Shown piece by piece: positions 1 through 13,321 of a DNA stretch of 13,321 bases. The translations under genes and the position numbers were made by a program. The stretch is from Leptospiraceae bacterium. Its GTDB lineage: Bacteria > Spirochaetota > Leptospiria > Turneriellales > Turneriellaceae. The stretch covers positions 1 to 13,321 of the forward strand of contig JAEUSA010000212.1 in NCBI GenBank assembly GCA_016788945.1, in the 5' to 3' direction. The notes under the pieces were generated by a model. It was given only the letters and a program-made list of their open reading frames with translations. It made no database searches and was not told the origin of the DNA. Positions within the stretch are counted from its first letter, which is position 1; each line of letters starts with the position of its first letter.

Positions 1-820
1 GATCGGCATCGGGGTGGGATTCATACTCGCAGGGTGGTTTGTCTACGATCTGCTGCAACGCTCGCCCTTAGGCAAAAGCCAGCTGGGTTTTGGGATTGTT
101 TTCTTTGCTCTCGTTATGGGTGCCACCTGGTATATCTGCCACACCTTCGGCGGCCGAGCGGCCTATCTGCATGTCGGCGCGATGCTCGGCACAATCATGG
201 TCGCGAACGTCTTCTTCGTCATCATACCCTCACAGCGCGAACTCGTTATTGCGAAAGAGCAGGGTCGTTTACCCGAAAAGAAAATGGCCGAGATGGCGAA
301 GAACCGTTCGCTGCATAACAACTACCTGACGCTGCCGGTGCTGTTTATCATGATTTCGAATCATTACCCGATGACGTTCTCGCACGAATACAACTGGGCG
401 ATCTTAGGCGCGATCTCGATGGGTGGGGCCTTAATACGCCACTGGTTCAATATGCGTGGCCAGGGGAAATCCGCCCCCTACCTGTGGGCCATCAGTGCCG
501 CCGTCTTCATCGCAGTGATCTGGTTCACGGCACCGAAAAAACAGGCTGCAGGCGCGCCCGTGGCCTTCGCAGAAGTCGATGCGATTATGGGTAAACATTG
601 CCGGGGATGCCACTCAGAAAAGCCAACGGACCAGATCTTCAAGATCGCCCCCAACGGCGTGAGATACGACACGCCCACACAGATCGCAACAATGGCCTCC
701 AAAATCAAACAAAGGGCGGTGGAAACGACTTCAATGCCCTTTGGGAACAAATCGAATATGACGGCCGAAGAGCGCACGCTTTTGGGCCGCTGGATCGATC
801 AGGGAGCGAAAATTGAATAA
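1..820 (+). CDS. puuD: Urate hydroxylase PuuD (membrane domain plus C-terminal cytochrome c), 5' end outside the window
   Basis: This is the C-terminal part of a PuuD-type urate oxidase, which converts urate to 5-hydroxyisourate in the inner membrane and passes electrons to a fused cytochrome c. The frame is open to base 2 with no stop, so the GTG at 14 is internal and the gene begins upstream; roughly the first third of a family-length protein (about 400 residues) is missing. Counting from that GTG, hydrophobic segments lie near residues 2-12, 25-43, 52-71, 105-117, 127-140 and 157-172. They are followed by a heme c motif CRGCH (C196, C199, H200) and a late Met-Pro segment (TTSMPFGN, about 228-235) that probably supplies the axial Met. 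The end (AEERTLLGRWIDQG) is typical of small c-type cytochrome domains. This is not the unrelated putrescine-pathway puuD. The following allB overlaps its stop codon, so the two are surely co-transcribed. Confidence 0.88.
   Translation, partial: IGIGVGFILAGWFVYDLLQRSPLGKSQLGFGIVFFALVMGATWYICHTFGGRAAYLHVGAMLGTIMVANVFFVIIPSQRELVIAKEQGRLPEKKMAEMAKNRSLHNNYLTLPVLFIMISNHYPMTFSHEYNWAILGAISMGGALIRHWFNMRGQGKSAPYLWAISAAVFIAVIWFTAPKKQAAGAPVAFAEVDAIMGKHCRGCHSEKPTDQIFKIAPNGVRYDTPTQIATMASKIKQRAVETTSMPFGNKSNMTAEERTLLGRWIDQGAKIE
801..806 (+). promoter_or_regulatory. Ribosome binding site that supports the TTG start of allB
   Basis: AGGGAG lies within the last codons of puuD, six bases before the TTG at 813. 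This spacing is ideal for a Shine-Dalgarno site. The next in-frame candidate, GTG at 834, has no comparable site, so the TTG is preferred. Confidence 0.55.
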
Positions 821-2186
821 CCCTCACCCGCGGGTGATTGTCTTCAAGAGTAAGCGCGTCGTCCTTCCTGAGGGAACCCGACCGGCGACCGTCGTCCTCG
901 AGGGAGAGAAAATTCGGGAGATACTGCCTTTCGAGGCAGATATCGGCTCATCCGACATCCGCATCATTGACTACGGTGATCTCGCACTGATGGCCGGCGT
1001 TGTCGATACGCATGTGCATATCAATGAACCCGGCCGCACCGAATGGGAAGGTTTTTCGACGGCAACGCTTGCGGCAGCAAAAGGCGGCATTACGACGCTC
1101 GTCGATATGCCACTCAACTGTGACCCGGTGACGACAACGGTGGCGGCGCTACAAAGCAAGCTTAAAGCATGCTCTTCGCTTCTGCACGTCGATTGCGGTT
1201 TTTACGGCGGCGTCATTCCGGGTAATACGGCAGAGCTTGAACCGCTGATCGATGCCGGAGTTCTCGGCTTTAAAAGTTTTCTAATCCATTCGGGCATCCA
1301 TGAATTTCCACATGTCGCAGAAGAAGATATACGGCGGGCAATCCCCATCTTGAAAAAAGGCGGAGTGCCCTACCTTATGCATGCGGAACTGGAGACCTCA
1401 CCCTCCCCACCGCCCTTAGGGGTGAGGTCGGGAGGGGGCAGTGAGGCCCGCCGCTATTCCACCTACTTGGCCTCGCGGCCGCGGCGTTGGGAGAACGACG
1501 CCGTCGAGTTGATGGCCCGCCTCGCCGGCGAAACCAATGCACACCTGCATGTGGTGCATCTGTCATCCAGTGATGCATTAGGTACGCTGCAAAGCGTCAG
1601 AAAAAACGGTGTGCCCGTGAGTGTGGAAACCTGTCATCATTACCTGACCTATTGCTCAGAAGAAATACCCGATGGCCATACCGAGTACAAATGTGCTCCG
1701 CCGATTCGCGAGCGAGAAAACCGGGAGAAACTTTGGCAGGCTCTCAAAGATGGTGTAATTGATTTTGCCGTGTCTGATCATTCTCCGTGCACGCCGGCAC
1801 TCAAAGAGAAAAGCACGGGCGATTTTATGAAGGCATGGGGCGGCATCGCCGGCCTGCAATTCAGTTTGTCGGTGTTTTACACCGGCGCTTTGGCGCGCGG
1901 CCTTGATCTCGCACAGGTCAGCCATGCATTGTCGGCGGCACCGGCAAAGTTTGTGGGATTGCAAAATAAAGGCAGCATTGCCCCCGGTAAAGATGCCGAC
2001 TTTACCGTATTTGATACACTGGCGAAGTTTCGTGTCGAACCGAGCATGATTGCCCACCGTCACGATGTTTCACCCTACATTGGTATGGAGCTTACCGGTA
2101 TGGTCAAGGCGACCTGGTTGAGGGGTACTTTGGTATTCGGTGAAGGTGCGGGCAACAAACCTGCAGGCCTTCCCATCTTGCGCTGA
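813..2186 (+). CDS. allB: Allantoinase
   Basis: A 457-residue amidohydrolase of the dihydroorotase/hydantoinase superfamily, close to the usual allantoinase length. It opens allantoin to allantoate. The binuclear metal site is visible: D65-T-H67-V-H69 followed by INEPGRTEWEGF (an allantoinase-type signature), the carboxylated lysine in GFKSF (K154), H190 in LMHAE, H249 in HLSSS, and the aspartate in SDHSPC (D322). The C-terminal GSIAPGKDADFTVFD is typical of the superfamily. The start is TTG at 813, overlapping the puuD stop by 8 bases, with AGGGAG upstream. Residues about 195-211 (TSPSPPPLGVRSGGGSE) look like an extra low-complexity insert encoded by a palindromic repeat. The insert lies just after the H190 metal ligand, in the loop before the conserved YLASRP..WE segment. 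The reading frame is intact through it, so the enzyme is probably functional. Neighbouring puuD and allC support allantoinase over hydantoinase. Confidence 0.93.
   Translation: MNNPHPRVIVFKSKRVVLPEGTRPATVVLEGEKIREILPFEADIGSSDIRIIDYGDLALMAGVVDTHVHINEPGRTEWEGFSTATLAAAKGGITTLVDMPLNCDPVTTTVAALQSKLKACSSLLHVDCGFYGGVIPGNTAELEPLIDAGVLGFKSFLIHSGIHEFPHVAEEDIRRAIPILKKGGVPYLMHAELETSPSPPPLGVRSGGGSEARRYSTYLASRPRRWENDAVELMARLAGETNAHLHVVHLSSSDALGTLQSVRKNGVPVSVETCHHYLTYCSEEIPDGHTEYKCAPPIRERENREKLWQALKDGVIDFAVSDHSPCTPALKEKSTGDFMKAWGGIAGLQFSLSVFYTGALARGLDLAQVSHALSAAPAKFVGLQNKGSIAPGKDADFTVFDTLAKFRVEPSMIAHRHDVSPYIGMELTGMVKATWLRGTLVFGEGAGNKPAGLPILR
1396..1436 (+). repeat. GC-rich palindromic element inside allB
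   Basis: CCTCACCC (1396-1403) is the exact reverse complement of GGGTGAGG (1420-1427). A second pair, CCCTCCC (1401-1407) and GGGAGGG (1430-1436), is also exact and overlaps the first. The two hairpins would be mutually exclusive or interleaved. The composition resembles the dispersed CCCTCACCC...GGGTGAGG type of intergenic palindromes seen in many bacterial genomes. Here it sits in frame in a coding region and encodes a Pro/Gly/Ser-rich stretch absent from typical allantoinases. Whether other copies exist in the genome cannot be seen from this window. Confidence 0.6.
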
Positions 2187-2276
2187 TAGATATCCGATAT
2201 ACCCCAACAAGACACGCCGAGGGTCACCTGCCCAAAACGGGCTTGTCCTGTTGAGTAGGGCGGTGCAGGAACGTCC

Positions 2277-4151
2277 ATGATCCGGAATTTGCCGATCGCC
2301 TTGCTGGCGCTCACCATCAGCTTCGCTGCGTGCAAAGAATCGCCGCCCCCGTATAAAGTTCCCGACGAACCGGGCGCAAATTCGGGTCCGACAAAGCCAC
2401 CGATTGTTCCTGGCATTGCCGGCGGGCAAATTGCCGCTCCATTGATTCCCTCGGCGCCCGCCACCGAACCGCCACACCATCCGGCAGCCGTCGACGACGC
2501 ACCGAAATTTTTTGAAAGCATCGGCACAACGCCGACCGAAGTGCAACAGGTTGCGGTGCAACAGACAGCGCCTGCGATTGCGCTGACATTCACTACTTCT
2601 CTCGTCGCACAGCCCGTGCAGACAAATAATGTCACCGGTACAATGTGGGATATCACCGGCAATTTTATGCCGGGTTTTCTCTGGGGTGTCGCGGTCGCCG
2701 CGCATCAGGTCGAAGGCTACAACACCAACAACGACTGGTGGTTATTTGAAACCTTCTGCAATAGCTTCTGGGAGGCGATCAGCACTTGTTTTCCGAAATT
2801 TATCCGCGACTCTGGTCGCGCGAGTGATCACTATAGCCTGTTCACCGACAGCGATCTTGACCGGGCACGCGATTTGGGTTCGAATACCTATCGCATGAGC
2901 ATCGAATGGTCGCGCATTGAACCGCAGAACGGTGTTTATTCTGCCAGCGCGACACAGTATTACCGCAACTATCTGACGAAGGTACGCGCGCGCGGCATGA
3001 AGCCGATGGTGACACTCTGGCATTTCACGCTGCCGCAATGGGCGCAAAAACCGGGTGTCTACTACGACATCTGGGGGCGCCATGACAATATGGATAGCTC
3101 GCTGGGTGGCTGGCAAAATCCGGTGATGGTGCAAAAGTTCGCCAACTTCGCCAAGTATTGTGCACAAAATTTCGGCGACCTCGTCGACATTTGGGTAACG
3201 CACAACGAACCGGTTGGAACAGTTATGGTAGGTTATATGGCGGGCTTTTTTCCACCGGGGTATCTGTTGAATTTTAATGGCGCAAAAGCAGCACTGCTTA
3301 ACCTGACGCGTGCGCACAATGCGGCATACGACGCAATTCACCAGTATGATACGATATCGGCACATCCCGGCCCGGCGGCGCAAGTGGGCCTTGTGCAGCA
3401 CTTTCGCTACTTCAGACCGAATAACCCGAACGACGCCGACGACATGAATGCGTTTCGCAAACTCGATTATTTCTATCACTACCACATGCTCGACGGCGCC
3501 ACATCGGGCCGCATCGATACCAATTGGGATGGTAGCGGCGATGAGTTGGTGGCTGGCAGTTCAAAGCTGGATTTCATCGGTGTGAATTATTATTCAACTT
3601 ACATGGTTGGCCCGAAGTACGCCGCGAACCTGCCTTTTTTTCTCGCGAGGGCCTACCCCGAGCTCGGTTATACGCCTTACATACCTGATAACAATTCAGC
3701 CAGCGTACCGCATAACTCGTTGGGTTGGGAAATTTATCCCGCGGGTTTCTATGAGACGCTCATGAAAGTAAAAAACCGCTACCACCTGCCGATTATGATC
3801 ACCGAAAATGGCATGGCCGACTCTGATGGCACGACCAATAAGCGTGCTCAATATATCATTTCGCACCTGCAGATGGCGCTCAAGGCCTACCGTGACGGCG
3901 CAGACATACGCGGTTATTATCTGTGGACTCTGACCGACAATTTTGAATGGCGCGAGGCCTTTCGCAAAGAAGCGCATTTCGGATTGTACAACGTCAACAC
4001 GAACGGGCGCGATGTCGCAGAAACGGGTGACTCGCTCGCGCGTACGCCGACAGCGGCCGTGGCAGCCTACCGGGCAATTGTCACCAACAATGGCATCTCG
4101 CAATCGCATATTAATACCTATGGAAGTTTTCCGCAATTGCCGAGACCATAA
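2277..4151 (+). CDS. GH1 family beta-glycosidase, predicted lipoprotein
   Basis: A 624-residue protein with a short lipoprotein signal (hydrophobic residues 6-17, lipobox FAAC with C19), a Pro/Ala/Thr-rich linker to about residue 125, and a complete glycoside hydrolase family 1 domain (about 131-600). GH1 landmarks appear in order: GFLWGVAVAAHQVEG (Q144 and E146 region), LWHFTLP (H249), the acid/base motif THNEP (N310, E311), NYYS near 437, the nucleophile motif ITENG (E510), and LWTLTDNFEW near 549-558. All catalytic residues are present, so it should be an active retaining beta-glycosidase at the cell surface or in the periplasm. The substrate cannot be read from sequence. AGGA stands six bases before the ATG. 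It lies 90 bases after allB and 33 bases before allC on the same strand, so co-transcription with the ureide genes is likely. GH1 enzymes are usually cytoplasmic or secreted at about 450 residues, so the lipidated, linker-bearing form is unusual. Confidence 0.92.
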   Translation: MIRNLPIALLALTISFAACKESPPPYKVPDEPGANSGPTKPPIVPGIAGGQIAAPLIPSAPATEPPHHPAAVDDAPKFFESIGTTPTEVQQVAVQQTAPAIALTFTTSLVAQPVQTNNVTGTMWDITGNFMPGFLWGVAVAAHQVEGYNTNNDWWLFETFCNSFWEAISTCFPKFIRDSGRASDHYSLFTDSDLDRARDLGSNTYRMSIEWSRIEPQNGVYSASATQYYRNYLTKVRARGMKPMVTLWHFTLPQWAQKPGVYYDIWGRHDNMDSSLGGWQNPVMVQKFANFAKYCAQNFGDLVDIWVTHNEPVGTVMVGYMAGFFPPGYLLNFNGAKAALLNLTRAHNAAYDAIHQYDTISAHPGPAAQVGLVQHFRYFRPNNPNDADDMNAFRKLDYFYHYHMLDGATSGRIDTNWDGSGDELVAGSSKLDFIGVNYYSTYMVGPKYAANLPFFLARAYPELGYTPYIPDNNSASVPHNSLGWEIYPAGFYETLMKVKNRYHLPIMITENGMADSDGTTNKRAQYIISHLQMALKAYRDGADIRGYYLWTLTDNFEWREAFRKEAHFGLYNVNTNGRDVAETGDSLARTPTAAVAAYRAIVTNNGISQSHINTYGSFPQLPRP

Positions 4152-4184
4152 TAGCATCTGCCAACGCACCATTGACGAAACATT

Positions 4185-5396
4185 ATGAATTACACACAAC
4201 TCGCGGCTGAAGCGCTCAGCCGTGCCGATGAACTGGCAACGTGCACTGAAGTGCCGGGCATTCTTAAGCGAACTTTTTTGTCTGAACCAATGAAAAAGGC
4301 ACACGGCCTCGTACGCGGCTGGATGCAAGAAGCCGGTATGTCGGTGCGCGTCGACGCCCTTGGCAATATTATCGGGCGCCTTTCTGGCAAAAACGATCAA
4401 GCTTTCTTAACAGGCAGCCATCTCGATACAGTACCCGACGCCGGAAAATATGACGGGATGCTCGGCGTGCTGATTGGCATCGCCGCGGCCAAGGCCATTG
4501 GAGCCAACAACCTTCCATTTCATTTCGACACGATTGGCTTCAGCGACGAAGAAGGGGTCCGCTATAAAATGCCCTACCTCGGCTCGCTTGCCGTAAGCGG
4601 CTTGTTTCAAGAAGAATTTTTCGCTCGCGTCGACGAAAATGGAATCACGATGGCCGACGCCATCAAGAACTTCGGCCTGAATCCCGCGGATTACCGAAGT
4701 GCGGCTTACGATTTCACCTCTGTCAAAGGTTTTGCCGAAGTACACATCGAGCAGGGGCCGGTGCTCGAAAAAGAAGATCTTGCGCTCGGCGCCGTCACCG
4801 GTTTAGTCGGCCAGTCACGTATCAAACTGTTTTTTCGCGGGTTGGCAAGCCATGCCGGCACAACACCGATGCCCGGCAGGCGTGATGCCTTTGCCGGACT
4901 CAGTGAGCTTTCAGTTTTTGTGGAGAAATATGCTCATTCAGTACCGCACCTTGTCGCCACGATCGGCATGGCTCAGGTTCGACCGGGCGGCGCCAACGTC
5001 ATACCGGGAGAAGTCTACTTCAGTTTAGACATCCGCCATGGCGAACAGGCAAAACTCGACGAGGCAACCGAAGTTATTCTTTCACAAGCGGAATACATTG
5101 CACGGCATCGCCATCTAACACTTGAAATTGAAACGCGTGAGGCTCAGGCGGTGGTAAAATGCGATGCGGCTTTGGTAGATAAGATGGCGGCAGCGATGGC
5201 CCAGCATGGTCATAAGAATTTTCGGTTGGCCAGTGGCGCGGGTCACGATACGGCAATCTTATCGAAGGTTACACCCACCGCGATGTTATTTATTCGCAGC
5301 CCCGGCGGCATCAGCCATAACCCGATTGAAACGGTGCAGGTTGAAGACGTGGCTGCCGCGATTGAGGTTTTTACAGAGTTCCTGAAATCGGTATAA
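4185..5396 (+). CDS. allC: Allantoate amidohydrolase (M20 family)
   Basis: A 403-residue M20-type metallohydrolase of the allantoate amidohydrolase / N-carbamoyl-L-amino acid hydrolase / ureidoglycolate amidohydrolase family, at normal length. Visible motifs are GSHLDTVPDAGKYDG (H79, D81, D90 metal region), FSDEEGVRY (E122/E123, bridging and catalytic acids), EVHIEQGP (H187), RGLASHAGTTPM (H223, dimer-domain substrate residue), SGAGHDT (H354) and SPGGISHNP (H378). It hydrolyses allantoate to ureidoglycine plus CO2 and ammonia. From sequence alone a carbamoyl-amino-acid hydrolase is possible. The company of puuD, allB, allE and allA makes AllC the better call. The ATG at 4185 has only a weak ribosome site. 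The gene ends 11 bases before the convergent oxidoreductase gene, and no clear terminator is seen in between. Confidence 0.88.
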   Translation: MNYTQLAAEALSRADELATCTEVPGILKRTFLSEPMKKAHGLVRGWMQEAGMSVRVDALGNIIGRLSGKNDQAFLTGSHLDTVPDAGKYDGMLGVLIGIAAAKAIGANNLPFHFDTIGFSDEEGVRYKMPYLGSLAVSGLFQEEFFARVDENGITMADAIKNFGLNPADYRSAAYDFTSVKGFAEVHIEQGPVLEKEDLALGAVTGLVGQSRIKLFFRGLASHAGTTPMPGRRDAFAGLSELSVFVEKYAHSVPHLVATIGMAQVRPGGANVIPGEVYFSLDIRHGEQAKLDEATEVILSQAEYIARHRHLTLEIETREAQAVVKCDAALVDKMAAAMAQHGHKNFRLASGAGHDTAILSKVTPTAMLFIRSPGGISHNPIETVQVEDVAAAIEVFTEFLKSV

Positions 5397-5407
5397 AAAC
5401 CGCGCCT

Positions 5408-6562
5408 TCAGGACTCTACCGCAAATGCCAGGCCGGCATATTTTTGCAATCGTTCGACGAGCGATTCTGCCATAAGGCCGCCCGGTGTGTAAAAACCACC
5501 GGGAGCTTTAACGTCGAGCAAAGCAAGCGCCGCTTCGGATATCATTTTGCTCGTTGAACCATAACCGGGGTCACGGTCACCCTTAACGGAGGTTCGCAGA
5601 TAGCGTCCATCGGGGAAGATACCGGTAAACACCACATCGTAAAAACCATTTTCCCGCTCTTCTTTTGACGGCCCGTCACCCGGCTTCAAACCTTTGCCGC
5701 TAAACGGGTTTGCCTTCGCCGCCGCATCGACCAGTGCGCGCGCGGCTTCACCGAGAGTCGTGAGCATCATTTCATCGTAGACAAAATTCTTTCCGTAGGC
5801 ATGGCCGAGCAAAAAGTTCGTACGGTGCACGTTTTTGGTGTTGATCGGCGCCATAACGAAAGGCGCGGCCCACACACCGAGTTCTTTGTCGTATTCGGGT
5901 ACGAGCCCATTGGGTTGTGACGGGCCTTCAAACCCCGGTGTCAGAGCAAATGGGTTATTGAGCAGGCTTAGTATCGAAGGATCTTTAATCGAAGCTTTGA
6001 GCGTGGCCTTCATACTCGCCATGGTGCCGCCCGAAGCGCCGCCCTGCATTTTTCGCACACGGCCTTTGACGCGCGGGGCAGGCGAGCCAAATTGTTTTTT
6101 TGCCTGCTGTTGCAGAAACCAAACGCCGAGGTCGAAAGGAATCGAATCAAAGCCGGCAGATAATACAATGTGCGCTCCGCTTTGTTTTGCTGCGGCCTCG
6201 TGCGCATCGATCATTTGCCGCGCCCATGCGGGTTCACCGTTCAGGTCGACGTAGTCGGTGCCGGTCGCGGCGCAGGTCTGTACGAGGTCTGAGCCGTATA
6301 GCTGGTAAGGCCCGACTGTGGTGAGTATAACGCGCGCGCTTTCGCACATCGCTTTGAGGCTTGCCGGGTTTGAAGAATCTGCTTCGATGAGCGCAATATC
6401 TTTTGCAGCGCCGATTTCATCGCGCACCTCGGCGAGCTTCGCCTTATTGCGACCAGCCATTGCCCAGTTCTTAATCTTGCGCCCGGTCAGGTATTCGGCA
6501 ACCAGTTTGCCGGTAAAACCCGTGGCACCGTAGACCACAAGGTCGAATTCTCTTTTAGCCAT
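5408..6562 (-). CDS. Saccharopine dehydrogenase-like NAD(P)-binding oxidoreductase
   Basis: A 384-residue protein with an N-terminal Rossmann fold: DLVVYGATGFTGKLVAEYL, glycine motif G12-x-x-G15-F-T-G18, and an AGRN segment near 36-39 at the end of the second strand. The late DPGYGSTSKMISEAALALL (about 331-349) is the hallmark of the SCCPDH / mycobacterial trans-acting enoyl reductase branch of the saccharopine dehydrogenase family. These are NAD(P)-dependent reductases, often linked to lipid metabolism. True saccharopine dehydrogenase activity is unlikely for this branch, and the substrate is unknown. The ATG at 6562 gives a proper family N-terminus although no ribosome site is evident upstream. 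It follows allA by 63 bases on the same strand and may be read from the allA promoter. I see no direct link to ureide catabolism. Confidence 0.85.
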   Translation of the reverse strand: MAKREFDLVVYGATGFTGKLVAEYLTGRKIKNWAMAGRNKAKLAEVRDEIGAAKDIALIEADSSNPASLKAMCESARVILTTVGPYQLYGSDLVQTCAATGTDYVDLNGEPAWARQMIDAHEAAAKQSGAHIVLSAGFDSIPFDLGVWFLQQQAKKQFGSPAPRVKGRVRKMQGGASGGTMASMKATLKASIKDPSILSLLNNPFALTPGFEGPSQPNGLVPEYDKELGVWAAPFVMAPINTKNVHRTNFLLGHAYGKNFVYDEMMLTTLGEAARALVDAAAKANPFSGKGLKPGDGPSKEERENGFYDVVFTGIFPDGRYLRTSVKGDRDPGYGSTSKMISEAALALLDVKAPGGFYTPGGLMAESLVERLQKYAGLAFAVES

Positions 6563-6625
6563 GGGGTTAATGGTTCAATCGGCAACGAAGCGTCAAAGGC
6601 AATATCTACCGGTAGTCCCAAAAGG

Positions 6626-7126
6626 TCATAACCGTATCTGTATCGGTAGTTTCAGGGTAAATTCTTCACAATCAAGCGGCGTGCCATCTTCCCACGCCAG
6701 CATCGCGAATTCAGCGGGCTGGTCTAGGGCGATGATCGGGTGATGCCAGACGCCGGCATTGTAGTTAATACCCTGCCCGGGCAGGCAAAGAAATGCCTGC
6801 AGCTGTTCGGTATCGGGTGAACCATGGCGCAAATTAGGCGCCGCAATGATCATAAAGCGGCTTACGATCATAGGCATAAATGCCTGCGTGTTTTGCGGAT
6901 GCCGTTCAAGCAACTTAATCGTAATAGGAGGCTCTAGCGGCGTGCTGCGAAAAACGGCAAGGTTCGGTTTTGCCTCGCTGCGTGCATTGCTAAGACCGGC
7001 ACACCAGTCGAAACGCACTGCCGTACCCTGATTGGCACTTGAACCCTGCTTGAGGCCGGCGCTGACAACCTGACCAAAAGGGGAAAATGCCTCAGCCGTC
7101 AATGGTTGTGCCTGTATTTGGTGCAT
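6626..7126 (-). CDS. allA: Ureidoglycolate lyase
   Basis: A 166-residue protein matching the cupin-fold AllA family at its usual length (about 160). It splits ureidoglycolate into glyoxylate and urea. Family landmarks are an N-terminal LTAEAFSPFGQVV, the segment LERHPQNTQAFMPM (about 83-96, ERHP and QAF conserved), an AFLCLPGQGINYNAGVWHHP stretch (GVWHHP conserved) and a closing DCEEF. The start at 7126 gives the expected N-terminus; no good ribosome site precedes it. It is transcribed away from the gene starting near 7225. A possible promoter on this strand lies at 7174-7203. It is on the opposite strand from the other ureide genes and about 1.2 kb from allC, so its expression may be separately controlled. 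Confidence 0.9.
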   Translation of the reverse strand: MHQIQAQPLTAEAFSPFGQVVSAGLKQGSSANQGTAVRFDWCAGLSNARSEAKPNLAVFRSTPLEPPITIKLLERHPQNTQAFMPMIVSRFMIIAAPNLRHGSPDTEQLQAFLCLPGQGINYNAGVWHHPIIALDQPAEFAMLAWEDGTPLDCEEFTLKLPIQIRL

Positions 7127-7173
7127 GCGCAGAAATGCATACGCGCATCGGCATGTCGTGTCATGCCAATTTT

Positions 7174-7203
7174 AGTTTACGTTACCGCACGGAAAACCGG
7201 CAA
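7174..7203 (-). promoter_or_regulatory. Possible sigma-70-type promoter for allA
   Basis: Reading the minus strand, TTGCCG (7203-7198) and TAAACT (7179-7174) are separated by 18 bases and point towards allA, about 50 bases ahead of its start codon. Both boxes match consensus at four of six positions. The match is suggestive only, since spirochaete promoters are poorly predictable by eye. Confidence 0.25.
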
Positions 7204-7224
7204 TTTCCCGGAGACTCATCGGCA

Positions 7225-7635
7225 GTGGCATCATATAGGAATTTCATTTTTTCTCCTGATGAGCAATCCGTCTTTTTTGAGAAATTGCAACAGGCCGTGA
7301 GAAATTTCTCAGCGCACAATAAAAAACCAGGCTCGCTCATGGTGGACGATAAACGGATTCGTCTCGAGTTTGGTCGCGAAGAATACTATTTCTACTTTCT
7401 CACCGCTGAAGGCGACGCTGTGGCTGAAGAATCGCGCGAAATTGCCGCAAACCACAAACAACGCCCCGAATCGGCTGCGATACAAAACTGCCGCTATCGC
7501 ATAGAATTTTATGGCGAAGATGATCAGAACATGGACTATTTCAATGATTTTTTCGGCCTGATGGAAGAAGTAAAGAAAATACGGGGAACAGTCATCTTTG
7601 ACTATCCTAATGCCCGTTTTTTCGGGGATACGTAA
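7225..7635 (+). CDS. Hypothetical protein, start uncertain
   Basis: I do not recognise a named family. The frame is open from an ATG at 7087, but that start overlaps the divergent allA, and the first 45 or so residues are compositionally poor. Candidate starts are ATG 7153 (no ribosome site), GTG 7225 (GGAG at 7210-7213) and an unconventional ATT 7246 preceded by AGGA. I chose GTG 7225, giving about 136 residues. The body is soluble, aromatic and acidic, with a FGREEYYFYF strand, a central Lys/Arg/Glu-rich loop, and a C-terminal part EFYGEDDQNMDYFNDFFGL followed by a helix and VIFDYPNARFF. It looks like a small alpha/beta protein. It is 15 bases upstream of the PilZ gene and probably forms an operon with it, so a partner role in signalling is possible but unproven. 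Confidence 0.7.
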   Translation: MASYRNFIFSPDEQSVFFEKLQQAVRNFSAHNKKPGSLMVDDKRIRLEFGREEYYFYFLTAEGDAVAEESREIAANHKQRPESAAIQNCRYRIEFYGEDDQNMDYFNDFFGLMEEVKKIRGTVIFDYPNARFFGDT

Positions 7636-7650
7636 GACAGGTGGGTTAAT

Positions 7651-7965
7651 ATGGTTTTACCGCAGGGACAGCACGACGACCGCCGCTCACACCCGCGCTA
7701 TAAATTTGTCAAAGCCGTCGAGGTACATGCGGCAAAGCGGGTTATCAAGGGTTTTGCGGTGGATATCGGACAAGGGGGAATTTCGTTCATTATCGACAGT
7801 ATTCTCGCTCCCGGAAATGTCATTGTGGAAATACCTGAAGTACAGCTGACTCTCGAAGGCAAGATTCTCAATCATCAACCTACTTCAAACGCCGGTCTAT
7901 ACCGGCACCAAATGCAATTTAAAGAAATGCTACTCAATGCGGTTCTTGAAGAAATTCTGACCTGA
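7651..7965 (+). CDS. PilZ domain protein with degenerate c-di-GMP motif
   Basis: A 104-residue single-domain protein. The N-terminal DDRRSHPRYKF contains the PilZ RxxxR motif (R12-S-H-P-R16), and the second half-motif is D38-I-G40-Q-G-G43, followed by the ISFIID strand. In canonical c-di-GMP receptors this second motif is (D/N)xSxxG; here the Ser position is Gly, so binding may be weakened or absent. The rest fits a small PilZ beta barrel (VIVEIPEVQLTLEGKIL) with a closing C-terminal helix. A strong ribosome site, AGGTGG, lies just ahead of the ATG. It is placed 15 bases after the hypothetical gene and 7 bases before the aquaglyceroporin gene, indicating one transcript. Its target is unknown. 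Confidence 0.85.
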   Translation: MVLPQGQHDDRRSHPRYKFVKAVEVHAAKRVIKGFAVDIGQGGISFIIDSILAPGNVIVEIPEVQLTLEGKILNHQPTSNAGLYRHQMQFKEMLLNAVLEEILT

Positions 7966-7972
7966 GACGCAT

Positions 7973-8692
7973 ATGCTGACACCATTCTGGGGCGAATTCT
8001 TTGGTACAATGGTACTCATTATTCTCGGCAGCGGTGTCGTCGCCGGAGTGTTGCTCGAAAAGTCGAAGGCGCAGAATGCGGGTTGGGTCGTCATCACGGC
8101 GGGCTGGGCTTTTGCAGTGACTCTCGGCGTCTTTACGGCAAAAACTTTCGGTAGCCCTGACGCTCACCTTAACCCGGCAGTCACGCTGGCGTTTGCCATT
8201 AAATCAGGTTCATTTGACAATCTGCCCATCTATTTCGCAGCCCAATTTGCCGGCGCGTTTGTCGGCGCGATCGTTACCTATCTGCAGTACCTACCGCATT
8301 GGGCTGAAACAAAGAATGCAGAACTCAAACTTGCCGTGTTTTCGACAAACCCTGCGATCAGGCATCCGATCGCGAACTCCATTAGCGAAACCTTTGGCAC
8401 GCTCGTATTGATCATTGGAATTTATGCAATTTTTTCGCGGGGTTCTGGCGGCGTCACCGCTGGTATGGGGCCTTTTCTTGTCGGCATACTCGTATGGGCA
8501 ATCGGTCTTTCGATGGGCGGCACTACGGGTTACGCGATTAATCCCGCGCGTGATTTAGGCCCGCGTCTGGCGCACGCCATCTTACCCATAGCCGGCAAAG
8601 GTCATTCTGACTGGAAATATTCTTGGGTGCCGGTGATTGCACCACTCATTGGCGGCGCGATCGGCGGCCTGTTAATCAGAATCGCGGGATAA
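7973..8692 (+). CDS. MIP family aquaglyceroporin (GlpF-like)
   Basis: A 239-residue major intrinsic protein with six membrane segments and two half-helices. The first channel motif is HLNPAVT (N67-P68-A69) and the second is NPARD (N190-P191-A192-R193-D194). The Asp after the second NPA-Arg marks the glycerol facilitator branch rather than water-only aquaporins. W45 and Y187 align with the tryptophan and phenylalanine of the GlpF aromatic/arginine filter, with R193 as the arginine. Transport of glycerol, and plausibly urea or other small neutral solutes, is expected by facilitated diffusion. No glycerol kinase gene is adjacent. It starts 7 bases after the PilZ gene and ends 3 bases before the signal-peptidase-like gene, so it is part of a tight run. 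The ribosome site is weak. Confidence 0.92.
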   Translation: MLTPFWGEFFGTMVLIILGSGVVAGVLLEKSKAQNAGWVVITAGWAFAVTLGVFTAKTFGSPDAHLNPAVTLAFAIKSGSFDNLPIYFAAQFAGAFVGAIVTYLQYLPHWAETKNAELKLAVFSTNPAIRHPIANSISETFGTLVLIIGIYAIFSRGSGGVTAGMGPFLVGILVWAIGLSMGGTTGYAINPARDLGPRLAHAILPIAGKGHSDWKYSWVPVIAPLIGGAIGGLLIRIAG

Positions 8693-8695
8693 TCC

Positions 8696-9760
8696 ATGGG
8701 TAAGCGTTCAGCGGCGGCGGCGATAGCGCTGAATTTCTTTTTTCTGCCGATGGGATACTTGTATCTGAAGGCCAACGGAAGATTTATCGCGGGCGCACTT
8801 TTTTCCGTTTTTATGACGATATTTTTTTCTTTTTTGTTGTGGTTGTTTCCGCGTTTCTTGCCAGCTGTGATCACCGCGCCACTGACAATTATTGTTAGTC
8901 TCGGTATCACGACACTGATTATCATTGATTCGTTCAGGTTGAGCCGCATGCCGCAGCCGTCAAAGTACTGGCCGGTCTTTGCTAAACCGCATGTCTTTTG
9001 GTTCATACCCGTTTACTTGATAGCAGTGGTCGCGATTGCGATTATCAGTGAACCGATCGAAAAGCCGTTCGCAAAACCGCATAATATTCCTTCACCGGCG
9101 ATGGAGCCCAACGTGCAAGTGGGGGATTTTGTCTTCGCGGATTACATGATCAACAAATCGCAACTGAAACGATCGGATATCGTGATCCATGAGGGGATAG
9201 GGTCATATAAAGGAAAGCGTCTTATCAAACGCATCATTGGCCTGCCGGGCGAGCGAGTGCGTCTGTTTGAAGAAAGAGTTTTCGGAAAAGATGGCACCGA
9301 ATATCATGTGACCCGGTATGCCATCAATGGTCGCACGATACCACTGATTTTCCGCGGTAACTCAGACAACAAATATAAGCTACAAAAGTATAGCAAATTG
9401 AGCAATCTCGGAGTATTCACTGAAAAACCGGAAGGCACCGGATATGACATATTGGAAGAAGAACGGCCGTTTGATTTTCCCGAAGGCAGGCGCACAGATT
9501 TTGAACTCGGCCCGGATGAATTTTTTCTATTAGGCGACAATCGTGATCATGCACTCGATTCGCGGCACGACGGTCCGGTTCACAGATCACAGATTTTAGG
9601 CAAATACATGCATACCTACTTTTCGTTCTTTATTGAAGATGCAAGTTGTGAAATGACCCATCCTGTCTTATTTGTCATAAAGGCTATGTCCGCGAATTCA
9701 GGACATCCTTGTAATGGCGTGACAATCCGCTGGGAGAAAGCCGGTTACACTGCCCGGTAA
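8696..9760 (+). CDS. Signal peptidase I homologue lacking the catalytic serine (probable pseudoenzyme)
   Basis: A 354-residue S26-family protein with an unusual N-terminal membrane domain: hydrophobic segments near residues 8-23, 30-50, 57-77 and 101-118, against two in E. coli Lep. The periplasmic core shows all boxes in order: IPSPAMEPNVQVGD (box B, 131-144), RSDIVI (box C), KRLIKRIIGLPGE (box D, general base K178) and LGDNRDHALDSRHDG (box E, 279-293). In box B the nucleophile position before Met is Ala135 (GCG, 9098-9100) instead of Ser. In box E the serine that hydrogen-bonds the lysine (Ser278 of E. coli) is Ala286 (GCA, 9551-9553). The lysine, the oxyanion-hole serine (S133) and the GDNRD scaffold are kept, and the frame is intact. 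A working serine/lysine dyad is therefore absent. It may bind or present pre-proteins, or act with another SPase, rather than cleave. Sequence error at two separate codons is unlikely. Confidence 0.9.
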   Translation: MGKRSAAAAIALNFFFLPMGYLYLKANGRFIAGALFSVFMTIFFSFLLWLFPRFLPAVITAPLTIIVSLGITTLIIIDSFRLSRMPQPSKYWPVFAKPHVFWFIPVYLIAVVAIAIISEPIEKPFAKPHNIPSPAMEPNVQVGDFVFADYMINKSQLKRSDIVIHEGIGSYKGKRLIKRIIGLPGERVRLFEERVFGKDGTEYHVTRYAINGRTIPLIFRGNSDNKYKLQKYSKLSNLGVFTEKPEGTGYDILEEERPFDFPEGRRTDFELGPDEFFLLGDNRDHALDSRHDGPVHRSQILGKYMHTYFSFFIEDASCEMTHPVLFVIKAMSANSGHPCNGVTIRWEKAGYTAR

Positions 9761-9809
9761 TTTTTCCCTAAATGCGTTGACACAGCCCTAAACCAAAGCT
9801 TCTGAGTCG

Positions 9810-10190
9810 ATGATGAAGCTACCGATCGTTATCGCCTTCGCAGGCGCCGTGGTTATTTCGTGCGGAGAAAAATCGAAAGCGAGCCAAGCAGCTCAACACG
9901 CTGTCGAACCTGATCTTGTTCTGGACCACAACTCATATACCGCGCTAACGGCGACAAAGTTACATGCAAGTCCATCGGTGAATTCGCCGCAGGTACAATG
10001 TGAAATCCGCACGGACGATTGCGGCCAAGAAGCTTGCATGCGTAAGTTCACCACTGTGCCCATAGGCACCTTGCTGCAAATCGAAGCGCGCACAAAATCA
10101 TCAGAAACCCACGACGGCAAAAGCGGATATTGGCATCGGGTGAATAATTGCGGCGCCTGGGTTTTTGGCGGATATATCCAGAAAAATTAA
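9810..10190 (+). CDS. SH3-domain lipoprotein
   Basis: A 126-residue predicted lipoprotein: hydrophobic residues 4-17 and a lipobox VISC with C18 as the lipidated cysteine, then a short Ser/Ala/Gln linker. The C-terminal part (about 43-124) looks like a bacterial SH3 fold, with TKLHASPS near the start, an IGTLLQIEAR strand and the closing YWHRVNNCGAWVFGGYI. Four further cysteines (C64, C71, C76, C114) could form two disulfides, consistent with an envelope location. Proteins of this shape are common in leptospires; their role is unknown, perhaps binding cell-wall or surface ligands. Two ATG codons in tandem (9810, 9813) are possible starts and only a weak ribosome site is seen. It lies 49 bases after the signal-peptidase-like gene and 52 bases before allE. 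Confidence 0.78.
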   Translation: MMKLPIVIAFAGAVVISCGEKSKASQAAQHAVEPDLVLDHNSYTALTATKLHASPSVNSPQVQCEIRTDDCGQEACMRKFTTVPIGTLLQIEARTKSSETHDGKSGYWHRVNNCGAWVFGGYIQKN

Positions 10191-10242
10191 CCAACAGGCA
10201 TTCGCGACTTGACGGGGCAATCTGCGCCTCGCATGCGCTCCC

Positions 10243-10986
10243 ATGCAGACACCCCACACCGCCCTCACACGCAGCCGCATCACCAACGATCATGCGCTGA
10301 TTACTCCGGAAAGCCATGTACTACTTTCGCCGCCCGGCTGGCTAAAGGCTACCGTCGTCTATTTCATTTCGCCACAGATGGGGGCGAATTTCACCATGTT
10401 CATGGGCGTGTACGAAACCGGCGGCGAATGCCAGCGCAACCTGAAAGATAATGAGGTACTCGCCTACGTACTTGAAGGTGATGTGGACTTACGCTTTGAA
10501 GGCGAGAATATGCTGAAGACCGGCGGCTTCTTTTTTCTGCCCCCCGGTAGCAGTTTCACGATCAAGGCAAAATCAGCAGCACGCGTGCTGTTTTTCGAAA
10601 AGATGTATGAACCGTTAGACGGGGTTAATCCGCCGCAGGCAATTATTTCACATGAAAGCAAAATCACCAAAGAGCCGTTTCTGGGCGACCCCGGCGCTCT
10701 GCTGCAGGTGCTGATGCCTATGGATGCTCAGTATGATATGGGAGTGAATATTTTCGAATTTGCACCGGGTGGCACGCTACCGAACGTCGAAAACCACTAC
10801 ATGGAGCATGGGCTTTATGTGCTGCAGGGGCAAGGCGTGTACCGCCTCGCCGAAAGCTGGTACCCGGTGCAGAAAGATGATGCAATCTGGATGGCGCCGT
10901 ATTGTCTGCAATGGTTTGTCGCTTCAGGCAAACAGAGTACGAAGTATATTTATTACAAAGACATGAACCGCCCGCCGTTGGTTTAA
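10243..10986 (+). CDS. allE: (S)-ureidoglycine aminohydrolase
   Basis: A 247-residue bicupin of the YlbA/AllE/UGlyAH family (E. coli AllE is about 260). It removes ammonia from ureidoglycine, the unstable product of allantoate hydrolysis, to give (S)-ureidoglycolate for AllA. The N-terminal cupin contains FMGVYETGGECQ and a GGFFFLPPGSSF turn. The C-terminal cupin holds the metal site: E183-N-H185-Y-M-E-H189, then LYVLQGQGVYRL, and Q223 in CLQWF. This matches the Glu/His/His/Gln manganese ligands of the family. The closing IYYKDMNRPP segment is also characteristic. The ATG at 10243 gives the expected N-terminus (TRSRITNDHALITPESH) but no clear ribosome site precedes it. It is 4.8 kb from allC on the same strand, next to an SH3 lipoprotein with no evident link to the pathway. 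Confidence 0.93.
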   Translation: MQTPHTALTRSRITNDHALITPESHVLLSPPGWLKATVVYFISPQMGANFTMFMGVYETGGECQRNLKDNEVLAYVLEGDVDLRFEGENMLKTGGFFFLPPGSSFTIKAKSAARVLFFEKMYEPLDGVNPPQAIISHESKITKEPFLGDPGALLQVLMPMDAQYDMGVNIFEFAPGGTLPNVENHYMEHGLYVLQGQGVYRLAESWYPVQKDDAIWMAPYCLQWFVASGKQSTKYIYYKDMNRPPLV

Positions 10987-11183
10987 ATGACCGATTGGGA
11001 TAAGTGCAACACGAAACAGGCGTCCCCTTGTAGTCGTCAAAGATCTCAGCAATCAAGCTCGATAACGGGACCGCATTCCAAGGGCAGCAACAGTTGGCAC
11101 TTTACGAGCCGCCTCGGGTAAGCCTGCTTTAGATTCACAGAAAGAACTATACCTCTGACAAATATGCCGTGCATTATCCATTG

Positions 11184-11200
11184 TTCCTTCGTTTAAGGAA
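11184..11200 (+). repeat. Short inverted repeat ahead of the small membrane protein gene
   Basis: TTCCTT (11184-11189) and AAGGAA (11195-11200) form a perfect 6-base inverted repeat around a 5-base loop, a few bases before the ribosome site of the next gene. It could be an operator or a weak leader hairpin, or chance. No T-run follows, so it is not a terminator. Confidence 0.3.
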
Positions 11201-11204
11201 TCAC

Positions 11205-11212
11205 AAGAGAGG
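11205..11212 (+). promoter_or_regulatory. Ribosome binding site suggesting a TTG start at 11219
   Basis: AAGAGAGG directly abuts the ATG at 11213 but stands six bases before an in-frame TTG at 11219. The spacing favours the TTG as the real start of the small membrane protein. Confidence 0.4.
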
Positions 11213-11479
11213 ATGATCTTGGAAAAACAGATCTTGGTCCAATATATAACCGGAGCTATCGCCATCGGTATTGGTCTTTGGGGTATTTTTGCCCCCATGG
11301 AGAGAAATATATTTGCCTTCAAAGACAGAGGTTTGGGCCTGATTTTACAGAATAAATTATCTGCCACAACCCTGAGAAAAATACCAAAAATCATCGGATT
11401 TGTCATGCTATTCGGCGGATGTTTAATTATCGCGGTCACCGCCTTTGGCGTGAAGTTCGCGCGCCATGCGGTCAACTGA
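11213..11479 (+). CDS. Small two-helix membrane protein
   Basis: An 88-residue protein (86 if the TTG at 11219 is used) of no family I recognise. Two hydrophobic segments are clear: VQYITGAIAIGIGLWGIFAP (about 9-28) and IIGFVMLFGGCLIIAVTAFG (about 60-79). A basic loop between them includes ALKDRG-like and TTLRKIPK stretches, which suggests an inner-membrane hairpin. The loop ends RKIPK and the tail VKFARH is basic, hence probably cytoplasmic. It is separated from allE by about 226 bases with no other gene and is visibly more AT-rich than its neighbours, so it may be a later arrival or simply a different gene class. Coding status rests on its membrane pattern and the ribosome site. Confidence 0.6.
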   Translation: MILEKQILVQYITGAIAIGIGLWGIFAPMERNIFAFKDRGLGLILQNKLSATTLRKIPKIIGFVMLFGGCLIIAVTAFGVKFARHAVN

Positions 11480-11563
11480 GAGTGCAATTCGTGAGTACTT
11501 CGGCTACCGCTTGTCAGTATGCAGTTTTCATGTTTGGTGATGATCCCACACACTTGCCATAAA

Positions 11564-13321
11564 TTACATCCGAATACTCACCAACTTGCCTGACACTGTT
11601 GGGATATAGAGTCGGCTTTTATGAATCAAAGGCCGCGCGCGAATTTTTTCTTTTACATCGAATTCGCGCTCGATTTTGCCGTCGGCAGCAGCAATCTTCA
11701 GAATTTTTCCACTGACCGTTGCGGTGAAAACGGAATTGCCATCGAGCACCGGAGATGATAATCCAAATCCGCCTTCTGAAGCTGCTGACTTCATGGGCTC
11801 TACGCTCCAAATTTTTTTGCCATCTTTGGTGAAGGCCGAAATACGATCGCCAAAGCCGACAATGACTTTGTCGTCTACGAGCGCGATGCGCTCACCGTCG
11901 AACGCTTGCATATTCGAGACACTCTTGAGGCCCATGTGCACGAAACTTGCCTCTGCATGCGCCATCGGTGGTGCTCCGCCGACGAAACCGTTTCCAGAAT
12001 CAAGCTCCGCGCTTTCACTGGCAAATTTTGTCGCTAATTGCACGCTGGCGTCAAGATACGGTGCGGATTGTGTTTCGCTGGTGAACATCAGTGACCGAGT
12101 GTTCTGATCGAACGCAGAAAGCTGTTCGAGCATCGGCTGCCCCGAGCGCTCTCCGCGGCGCAGCATGAAGATGCGGCTATCGGCAAACATGGGCAGCGAT
12201 GTGCCGCGCAACCGGTGCGCTATTACGGGTGCACCGGCGCGAAAACCGTACACGATGCCGGCAAAAGTGGAAAAGAATACGGTGTCGCCGAAGATAACGG
12301 GTTTCGAAATGATTTCGCTATCGATGGCATGCTGCCAGACGATGGCACCGGTTTTGGCGTCGAAAGCCGCAATGGCATGGCTTGCCTGGCCGGTCGTTGA
12401 AAACGGGTATGAAGTGATGACCTGACCGCGGTGGATTATCGGCGTGCTGATTAGCGGGTCGCCGAGAAAAGCCGACCATCTTTGTTTGCCGGTTTTTCCA
12501 TCGACAAGAAAAAGTGTGCAAGATTCGGTATTGAAGGCGACAACACCCGAACCGCACGCGGGCGTTGAGGGACCATTGTCGCTGAGGCCCACGGCCCATT
12601 TAGGGTTGAATGTCTCCGCATCAAACGCGTAGAATTCGCGGCTATTAAACCCTCCCCCCGTGTACAATGTGTCGTCACAGATGACGGGAGTCGTAAGGTT
12701 ACGCGCTCCGGGAAAAGTGATCGTTACTGTCGCACCGGCGATGGCGACTTGTTTGGTGTTAGAGCGCGCGGGGGTGACGTGGCCGGGAGAAAATTTTTGC
12801 GGCAGTTTTAGTTTCGTGAATTTTTTTATTTCGGGGAGGATGTCACCCTCTGCATATTCGTGTTTCTGCGCATAGGCGAGCCGTTCATTGCTAAAATTAC
12901 TCTGGGTGCCGTCGGCGAGAAGACCGCCGCGGCCGAAGGTGATGACAAAGCCGCGAAACCAGCCCAAGGACATAGTGTCGTACTGACAGCCCGTCTGGTA
13001 GGTCTTCAACCATTTGATTTCTTTATCTGCGAACAGGTCGGGTGCGAGAGCGCTGAGATTTTCGAGAATCTGACCTTCAACTGCCTCATCGGCCACTACG
13101 ACGTCATGAACGCATCGCACAGAAAAAAAGGTCACACTATCTATACGTTTTCCGCGCGCGGCGGCGAATTTCCCTGCATCATCGGGGTGAATGCCGAGAT
13201 TCGACCGGTCGACACGAATCGCGACTTGGTTTTTTCCGAGGTTGCCGTCGAAACGGCGGATCTTGGTCACGGTAAATTTACGAACGCCTGCTGTTTGAAA
13301 CGGATTCGCCGGCGGCTCATT
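11564..13321 (-). CDS. PQQ-like beta-propeller repeat protein, 5' end outside the window
   Basis: At least 585 residues are visible. The frame stays open past the GTG at 13270 to the right edge, so the true start and any signal peptide lie outside. From about 190 residues in (counted from the GTG) there is a run of beta-propeller blades with the PQQ/BamB-like pattern, such as LFLVDGKTGKQRWSAFLGD, AIAAFDAKTGAIVWQHAIDS, ISAFTKDGKKIWSVEP and a last blade KILKIAAADGKIEREF, each followed by a PVI.GDTVF-type strand. No methanol-dehydrogenase-type catalytic motifs are seen, so it is more likely a scaffold or binding protein in the periplasm or outer membrane than a quinoprotein enzyme. The N-terminal 180 or so residues are not recognised. 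It converges on the small membrane protein gene, with 84 bases between and no clear terminator. Confidence 0.8.
   Translation of the reverse strand, partial: NEPPANPFQTAGVRKFTVTKIRRFDGNLGKNQVAIRVDRSNLGIHPDDAGKFAAARGKRIDSVTFFSVRCVHDVVVADEAVEGQILENLSALAPDLFADKEIKWLKTYQTGCQYDTMSLGWFRGFVITFGRGGLLADGTQSNFSNERLAYAQKHEYAEGDILPEIKKFTKLKLPQKFSPGHVTPARSNTKQVAIAGATVTITFPGARNLTTPVICDDTLYTGGGFNSREFYAFDAETFNPKWAVGLSDNGPSTPACGSGVVAFNTESCTLFLVDGKTGKQRWSAFLGDPLISTPIIHRGQVITSYPFSTTGQASHAIAAFDAKTGAIVWQHAIDSEIISKPVIFGDTVFFSTFAGIVYGFRAGAPVIAHRLRGTSLPMFADSRIFMLRRGERSGQPMLEQLSAFDQNTRSLMFTSETQSAPYLDASVQLATKFASESAELDSGNGFVGGAPPMAHAEASFVHMGLKSVSNMQAFDGERIALVDDKVIVGFGDRISAFTKDGKKIWSVEPMKSAASEGGFGLSSPVLDGNSVFTATVSGKILKIAAADGKIEREFDVKEKIRARPLIHKSRLYIPTVSGKLVSIRM

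Follow-up and report, generated by a model that had tools for sequence, protein, structure and literature searches.

A signal peptidase I homologue with alanine at both active-site serines in a Leptospiraceae bacterium, and a short dyad-less S26 paralogue across its class

Dead homologues of type I signal peptidase (SPase; family S26) are known from two Gram-positive cases. SipA, encoded in pilus loci of Streptococcus pyogenes (PMC4049620; PDB 4n31, 4k8w), carries Asp and Gly (Gly85) where Escherichia coli LepB (PDB 1t7d, 1b12) has its Ser90/Lys145 dyad, and Asn (Asn140) in place of Gly272, while SpsA of Staphylococcus aureus is listed as inactive and as missing two conserved catalytic residues (PMC12445088). 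Among the open-licence papers listed, there were accounts of SipA and SpsA and none of dead S26 homologues in the class Leptospiria or of the short S26 paralogue described below; the accessible part of a comparative-genomics study of Leptospira mentions signal peptidase without dead copies (PMC4758666). The present computational analysis concerns a contig of 13,321 nucleotides from a Leptospiraceae bacterium (JAEUSA010000212.1, positions 1 to 13,321, assembly GCA_016788945.1; the whole stretch is called the window), in which a gene at 8696..9760 on the forward strand encodes an S26 homologue of 354 amino acids without the Ser/Lys dyad, hereafter the window protein.

The window protein is a member of S26: it scores 81.5 bits against Pfam PF10502 (cut-off 22.9) and 83.3 bits against the NCBIfam signal peptidase I profile TIGR02227 (cut-off 47), above the curated cut-offs, and a structure model and structural comparison agree that the SPase fold is kept. 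The comparison consisted of Foldseek matches re-examined with VIA-align, and its scope is the families in the Foldseek listing; an earlier model built from ten sequences was poor (predicted local distance difference test score 58.9) and was not used. In an alignment with 156 other S26 proteins, Ala135, Lys178 and Ala286 fall in the columns of E. coli Ser90, Lys145 and Ser278, the three positions referred to here as the trio. Box B (9089..9109, +) reads PSPAMEP, with Ala135 (codon GCG, 9098-9100, a single base from the Ser codon TCG) replacing the nucleophile and Ser133 kept; Lys178 at the general-base position is encoded by AAA (9227..9229, +); and box E (9533..9565, +) reads GDNRDHALDSR, with Ala286 (GCA, 9551-9553) replacing Ser278 and with Gly280, the equivalent of E. 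coli Gly272, kept. Codons and alignment alike confirm the original prediction that both active-site serines are Ala beside an intact Lys178 and Ser133. The general-base Lys of an active type I signal peptidase is therefore present, and the nucleophile and box E serines are missing; because the nucleophile is gone, the known mechanism would be unusable, and the window protein is predicted to lack peptidase activity. For the second position alone, the E. coli Ser278Ala variant retains some activity. Signal peptidases of the endoplasmic reticulum type employ a Ser/His dyad, and the window protein differs from them in having Lys178; His at the general-base position was found only in its relative P0005.

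Ahead of the catalytic domain lies a membrane part (residues 6-122; 8711..9061, +) in which a first helix, weaker and broken, is followed by three clear hydrophobic ones. Hydropathy peaks at residues 28-56, 53-83 and 94-122, with a weak one at 6-24, correspond to model helices at 27-54, 57-84, 97-122 and 6-16 plus 19-23, which agrees with the original prediction of roughly four membrane segments, of which the first is the least certain.

A single search of 5.8 billion proteins returned 170 matches, and in the family drawn from the best 120 of these, nine proteins (P0001-P0009, the window protein included) stood far above the rest among the matches listed, with P0010 as a distant tenth; a profile search, which scored the 7998 candidates sharing most words, again placed these ten on top, with scores of at least 362 bits, the next match scoring 89 bits. 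Within this close family the trio is inconstant in composition: it reads Ala/Lys/Ala in the window protein, Ser/Lys/Ala in P0002, P0003, P0004 and P0008, Ser/His/Ser in P0005, Ser/Gln/Ser in P0006 and P0007, and Lys/Ala with the first position missing in the truncated P0009, so that none of the eight full-length close members has Ser/Lys/Ser. The nucleophile Ser is present in each of P0002-P0008, the seven close relatives whose box B can be read, an outcome that the original prediction had named as counting against it; the window protein alone among the eight readable members has Ala there, and the distant P0010 (Ala/Lys/Ser) also has Ala. The suggestion that the Ala pair might be fixed in a clade consequently fails, only the box E Ala being shared (6/9, the window protein with P0002-P0004, P0008 and P0009), and Lys retention does not hold as a family constant. 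Phylogenetically, the window protein joins P0002-P0004 (support 97/97), and P0008, with Lys, is sister to P0007, with Gln (97/95), which implies repeated change at the catalytic positions. The nearest other proteins in the class are L007 of genome G029 (Ser/Lys/Ser), 33% identical to the window protein, and L008 of G034 (28%), whose box B lacks Ser and in which Ser replaces Lys; both sit on long branches of the family tree, and their placement is unsure. As a side observation, Lys178 goes with Ala286 in 6/6 close-family members and His or Gln178 with Ser286 in 3/3, and the five Lys-less rows outside the close family all have Ala.

The wider sample comprises 157 rows, namely all S26 matches listed from both searches, and was retrieved by similarity to the window family and not at random. 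Ser and Lys are both present in 143 of these homologues and not in 13, one being unread; box E Ser is found in 146. Against this background the Ala/Lys/Ala pattern is not a matter of chance: it occurs in one row, that of the window protein. Loss of Ser with Lys kept is not unique to it, being seen in five of the 13 dyad-less proteins: P0001 (the window protein), P0010, P0121 and P0123 (the last three Ala/Lys/Ser) and P0119 (Cys/Lys/Ser). With Cys at the nucleophile position (GACMEP), P0119 is possibly a cysteine version.

The genome of the window (3.70 Mb in 465 contigs, 94% complete) holds five S26 matches: L001, L002, L004, L005 and the window protein. L001 is an intact LepB (SPSMEP / VKRVV / GDNRGHSLDCR), which the original prediction had proposed to look for; L004 has Ser and Lys, as does L005 by eye, the profile not covering L005 there; and L002 (G000:C62, 1282-1968) has the trio Ser/Cys/Thr.

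Because the cleft motifs, the Gly280-Asp-Asn-Arg stretch and the membrane anchor, which are the parts that hold and place a signal peptide, are kept, we favour on balance, and with moderate confidence, the interpretation that the window protein no longer cuts as a Ser/Lys peptidase and is an accessory, non-cutting binder of signal peptides beside LepB. Such a protein would present an SPase cleft, anchored in the membrane, on the periplasmic side, would bind, but not cleave, signal-peptide-like segments of exported or membrane proteins, and would act as a holder or modulator next to the true LepB of the genome; it would belong to a very small accessory S26 branch, the members of which have lost different parts of the trio. 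Several considerations weigh against this interpretation. Binding, expression and partner are conjecture, and what the protein binds, and for what purpose, is a guess; the conservation of the cleft was assessed by sequence alone; the four relatives with Ser and Lys may be weak peptidases, so that catalysis need not be absent throughout the family; if the loss of Ser is very recent, the equal rates reported below say nothing about a non-cutting function; and the six congener genomes in which the window family was not found (82-99% complete, their matches being general S26 genes) are partly incomplete.

The strongest competing explanation, which we regard as rather unlikely, though a serious contender, is a recent loss of the nucleophile from a gene that is accessory and dispensable and is heading towards decay, the dead form having no function. 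The nucleophile loss is indeed apparently recent, Ala135 being one base from Ser and confined to this one of the eight readable close members; the family is missing from the congener searches, other genes following the MIP channel gene there; and the guanine-cytosine content of the gene (46.7%) is below that of the window (52.5%). Low content is, however, equally a property of the upstream PilZ gene (47.6%), which congeners keep, and is therefore no sign of foreign origin. Moreover, the reading frame is intact through all 354 codons, the N- and C-terminal family motifs are kept, the relatives without Lys (P0005-P0007) are also full-length, and none of 12 Tajima tests comparing the window protein with P0002-P0004, P0005-P0008 serving as outgroups, was significant (chi-square 0.00-2.52). 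The absence of a rate excess together with intact frame and termini disfavours long neutral decay, in keeping with the original argument against random decay, and leaves room for a loss that is very recent or for an allele of this strain.

A less probable alternative is that Ala135 is an artefact of assembly or strain, the usual allele having Ser and encoding a weak signal peptidase with box E Ala, like P0002-P0004. The substitution is a single base change against Ser in every readable close relative, and it is read from one contig, the genome copy (G000:C225) being that same contig and no independent check; the frame is nevertheless undisturbed, and the 90% database cluster of the window protein has 15 member sequences, their residue at 135 being unseen. 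Of the two codons at which a sequencing error had been considered, 9551-9553 is an unlikely site, since box E Ala is common to relatives. A peptidase with a substitute nucleophile, for which Ser133, two positions before Ala135, would be an example, or with a different chemistry at Lys178 is very improbable, for although both residues are kept, Ser occupies the 133 column, an oxyanion-side residue in E. coli, in 51 of the 157 S26 proteins, most with an ordinary dyad, and Lys178 is lost in three relatives.

Considered across the class, a second dead S26 copy, which we regard as the more interesting object, is the short paralogue represented in this genome by L002. The trio was read in 126 distinct S26 open reading frames from 174 loci in 48 class genomes, among the matches listed and with weak matches missing; four further places stand outside these counts (one Ser/Lys/Ser, two fragments and one in which Ala replaces the Lys). 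Ser and Lys are present in 76 reading frames, one or both are absent from 44 in which both positions are readable, and six are unsure, two of these having Cys at the Lys position. An S26 protein with the dyad occurs in at least 45 of the 48 genomes, and one without it in at least 40 (42 with two unsure cases included). A short dyad-less paralogue, mostly of 171-258 amino acids from stop to stop, is present once each in at least 42 genomes, with no clear copy in G003, G021, G023, G024, G036 and G043; G003 has a 69-residue fragment at a contig end, with the second Cys and the Asn typical of the order, and G023 a reading frame with Ala at the Lys position.

In a class tree of 122 rows, made by a quick method and with four of eight unlabelled rows left out, the 42 short paralogues lie on one side of a branch (Shimodaira-Hasegawa-like approximate likelihood ratio test, SH-aLRT, 98) and divide among family groups in the same way as the genomes; the window protein falls outside them, with L007 and L008 (SH-aLRT 83%). 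A single ancient loss of the dyad in the class, which had first seemed likely from this tree, did not survive the addition of 20 short S26 sequences from the phylum, picked by hand, mostly as best matches, from 45 matching genomes outside the class. Ser and Lys are present in 11 of these sequences and not in nine (L276, L278, L281, L282, L284, L285, L286, L291 and L295). The enlarged tree has a group of 56 rows (SH-aLRT 95%) with its inner order open, consisting of the 42 class rows, the nine other dyad-less rows and five phylum rows with Ser and Lys, and requires the class label to change twice, a single origin remaining compatible with it. Judged from this phylum-wide tree, the short paralogue is older than the class, its dyad having been lost often, and in all 42 class copies. 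Score does not set the short group off sharply, since the profile of the order (A3) reaches 45 genomes outside the class and only 31 of the 48 within it at 1e-12. Purifying selection is suggested by one pair, L231 and L234, both lacking Ser and Lys, which are 77% identical with a ratio of nonsynonymous to synonymous substitution rates (dN/dS) of 0.12 at a dS of 1.26 over 193 codons, a few of which precede the probable start; of the 20 remaining pairs, 13 show saturation, and dS is at least 1.8 in the others.

In the order of the window, Turneriellales, all 17 readable genomes have Lys145 replaced by Cys, Met270 by Cys and Gly272 by Asn or His in the short paralogue, and both cysteines together occur in none of the 25 other class copies. 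A database search with the paralogue gave 90 matches; among the 60 closest (P0158-P0217), Cys/Cys/Asn is present in 59 of 59 readable sequences, exactly two cysteines overall in 51, and Ser, Ala or an unread residue at the Ser90 position in 46, nine and five, respectively, while the next 30 matches have Lys in 25 cases and the Cys pair in none. Met270 packs on Lys145 in E. coli. The strand beta5 carrying Lys145 is described in E. coli as bridged to strand beta6 with Met270-Met271 (PMC12984324), which makes a disulfide between the two cysteines plausible. Five of the 25 other class copies (L243, L205, L216, L219 and L217, of G022, G031, G034, G037 and G044, respectively) have Cys at the Gly272 and Ser278 positions, in the same pocket. 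A radical S-adenosylmethionine gene, presumably of the lysine-aminomutase type, lies within 500 bases of the short dead S26 gene in 16 of 17 genomes of the order (Pfam PF04055 for the copy of the window genome, at L002:1968-2897).

Taken together, these data allow a tentative class-wide reading, held somewhat less firmly since the phylum-wide tree broke the picture of a single loss. Most class genomes may keep, under selection, a single further, non-cutting signal-peptidase copy beside LepB, in which Lys-to-Cys would pair, probably by disulfide bonding over the dead pocket, with Met270-to-Cys in this order and Cys residues take the Gly272 and Ser278 positions in some other lineages; the window protein would be an independent, recent conversion, and the S26 fold a standing signal-peptide-binding module, perhaps since before the orders split.

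With regard to its distribution and surroundings, the window gene is an accessory gene in a variable slot: it is absent from the congener searches, and the adjoining pair of genes for a PilZ-domain protein (7651..7965, +; Pfam PF07238, 35.1 bits) and a MIP channel (7973..8692, +; PF00230, 126.7 bits), the latter ending 3 bases before the S26 gene starts, stands side by side in congeners G001 and G004 with other genes following. No S26 gene of the window family was found in the MIP-bearing congeners G001, G004 and G006. A functional tie to the PilZ and channel genes, offered by the original prediction as a clue, is unsupported, the pair standing without the S26 gene in two congeners. Contamination of the contig was ruled out, since the flanking PilZ, MIP and cupin genes are 70, 83 and 82% identical to those of G001 and place the S26 gene within DNA of the genus. 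Across 296 genomes of the phylum, besides the genome itself only the distant G020, G029 and G034 passed 1e-25; among named genomes, an initial scan with the window protein alone gave no relative, and a second with an alignment kept 80 loci whose best segment, mostly in the catalytic part, was 23-50% identical. A plasmid-borne family was likewise rejected, tblastn matching 193 plasmid records, none with 80% query cover and all below 60% identity. Downstream lies a small reading frame (9810..10190, +) with a lipoprotein-like start by eye and no family match; a 182-residue frame before PilZ (7087-7635) has no Pfam, NCBIfam or PHROG match. Several genes at 14-7126 and 10243-10986 fit purine catabolism (a urate oxidase domain ending in a sub-threshold cytochrome c match, an amidohydrolase, an M20 family peptidase, a ureidoglycolate lyase and a cupin), and a GH1 glycosidase gene is interspersed. 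On the 13.3-kb contig, to which this search was confined, no sortase or pilin was found among the 13 of 14 likely genes scanned with Pfam, the remaining 88-residue frame at 11213 having been scanned against PHROGs only.

Dead S26 homologues of the SipA and SpsA type, of which the original prediction had named SipA, are the closest known kind. Like SipA, the window protein combines the SPase fold with an incomplete Ser/Lys dyad; unlike SipA, in which Lys and Gly272 are both replaced and which is encoded in a pilus locus, it keeps Lys and the Gly272 equivalent, has lost Ser, has about four membrane segments instead of one, and is encoded on a contig in which no pilus or sortase locus was seen. 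The combination of lost Lys and Gly272-to-Asn found in SipA is the same as that of the short paralogue of the order (PMC4049620, section 8). SpsA is, like the window protein, a dead S26 paralogue in a genome that also encodes an intact signal peptidase, and its published description sets it apart, as the window protein keeps Lys. Relative to E. coli LepB, from which it differs in having Ala for Ser90 and Ser278, its domain follows a longer membrane part and starts near residue 124 rather than 80. The short paralogue is also a dead S26 protein of the same genome, yet it has about 190 amino acids, Cys for Lys in its own order and a replaced Gly272, and stands apart in the class tree. To the Gram-positive cases, the present locus adds losses of different catalytic residues among close relatives, and the other dead copy adds replacement residues of its own, fixed in this order, so that a non-cutting role of the fold becomes testable in a free-living relative; in this class, many genes that carry the annotation signal peptidase I probably do not encode peptidases. 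By itself, the window protein is one further dead S26 homologue; it is the family pattern and the Cys-paired paralogue that add to the known kind.
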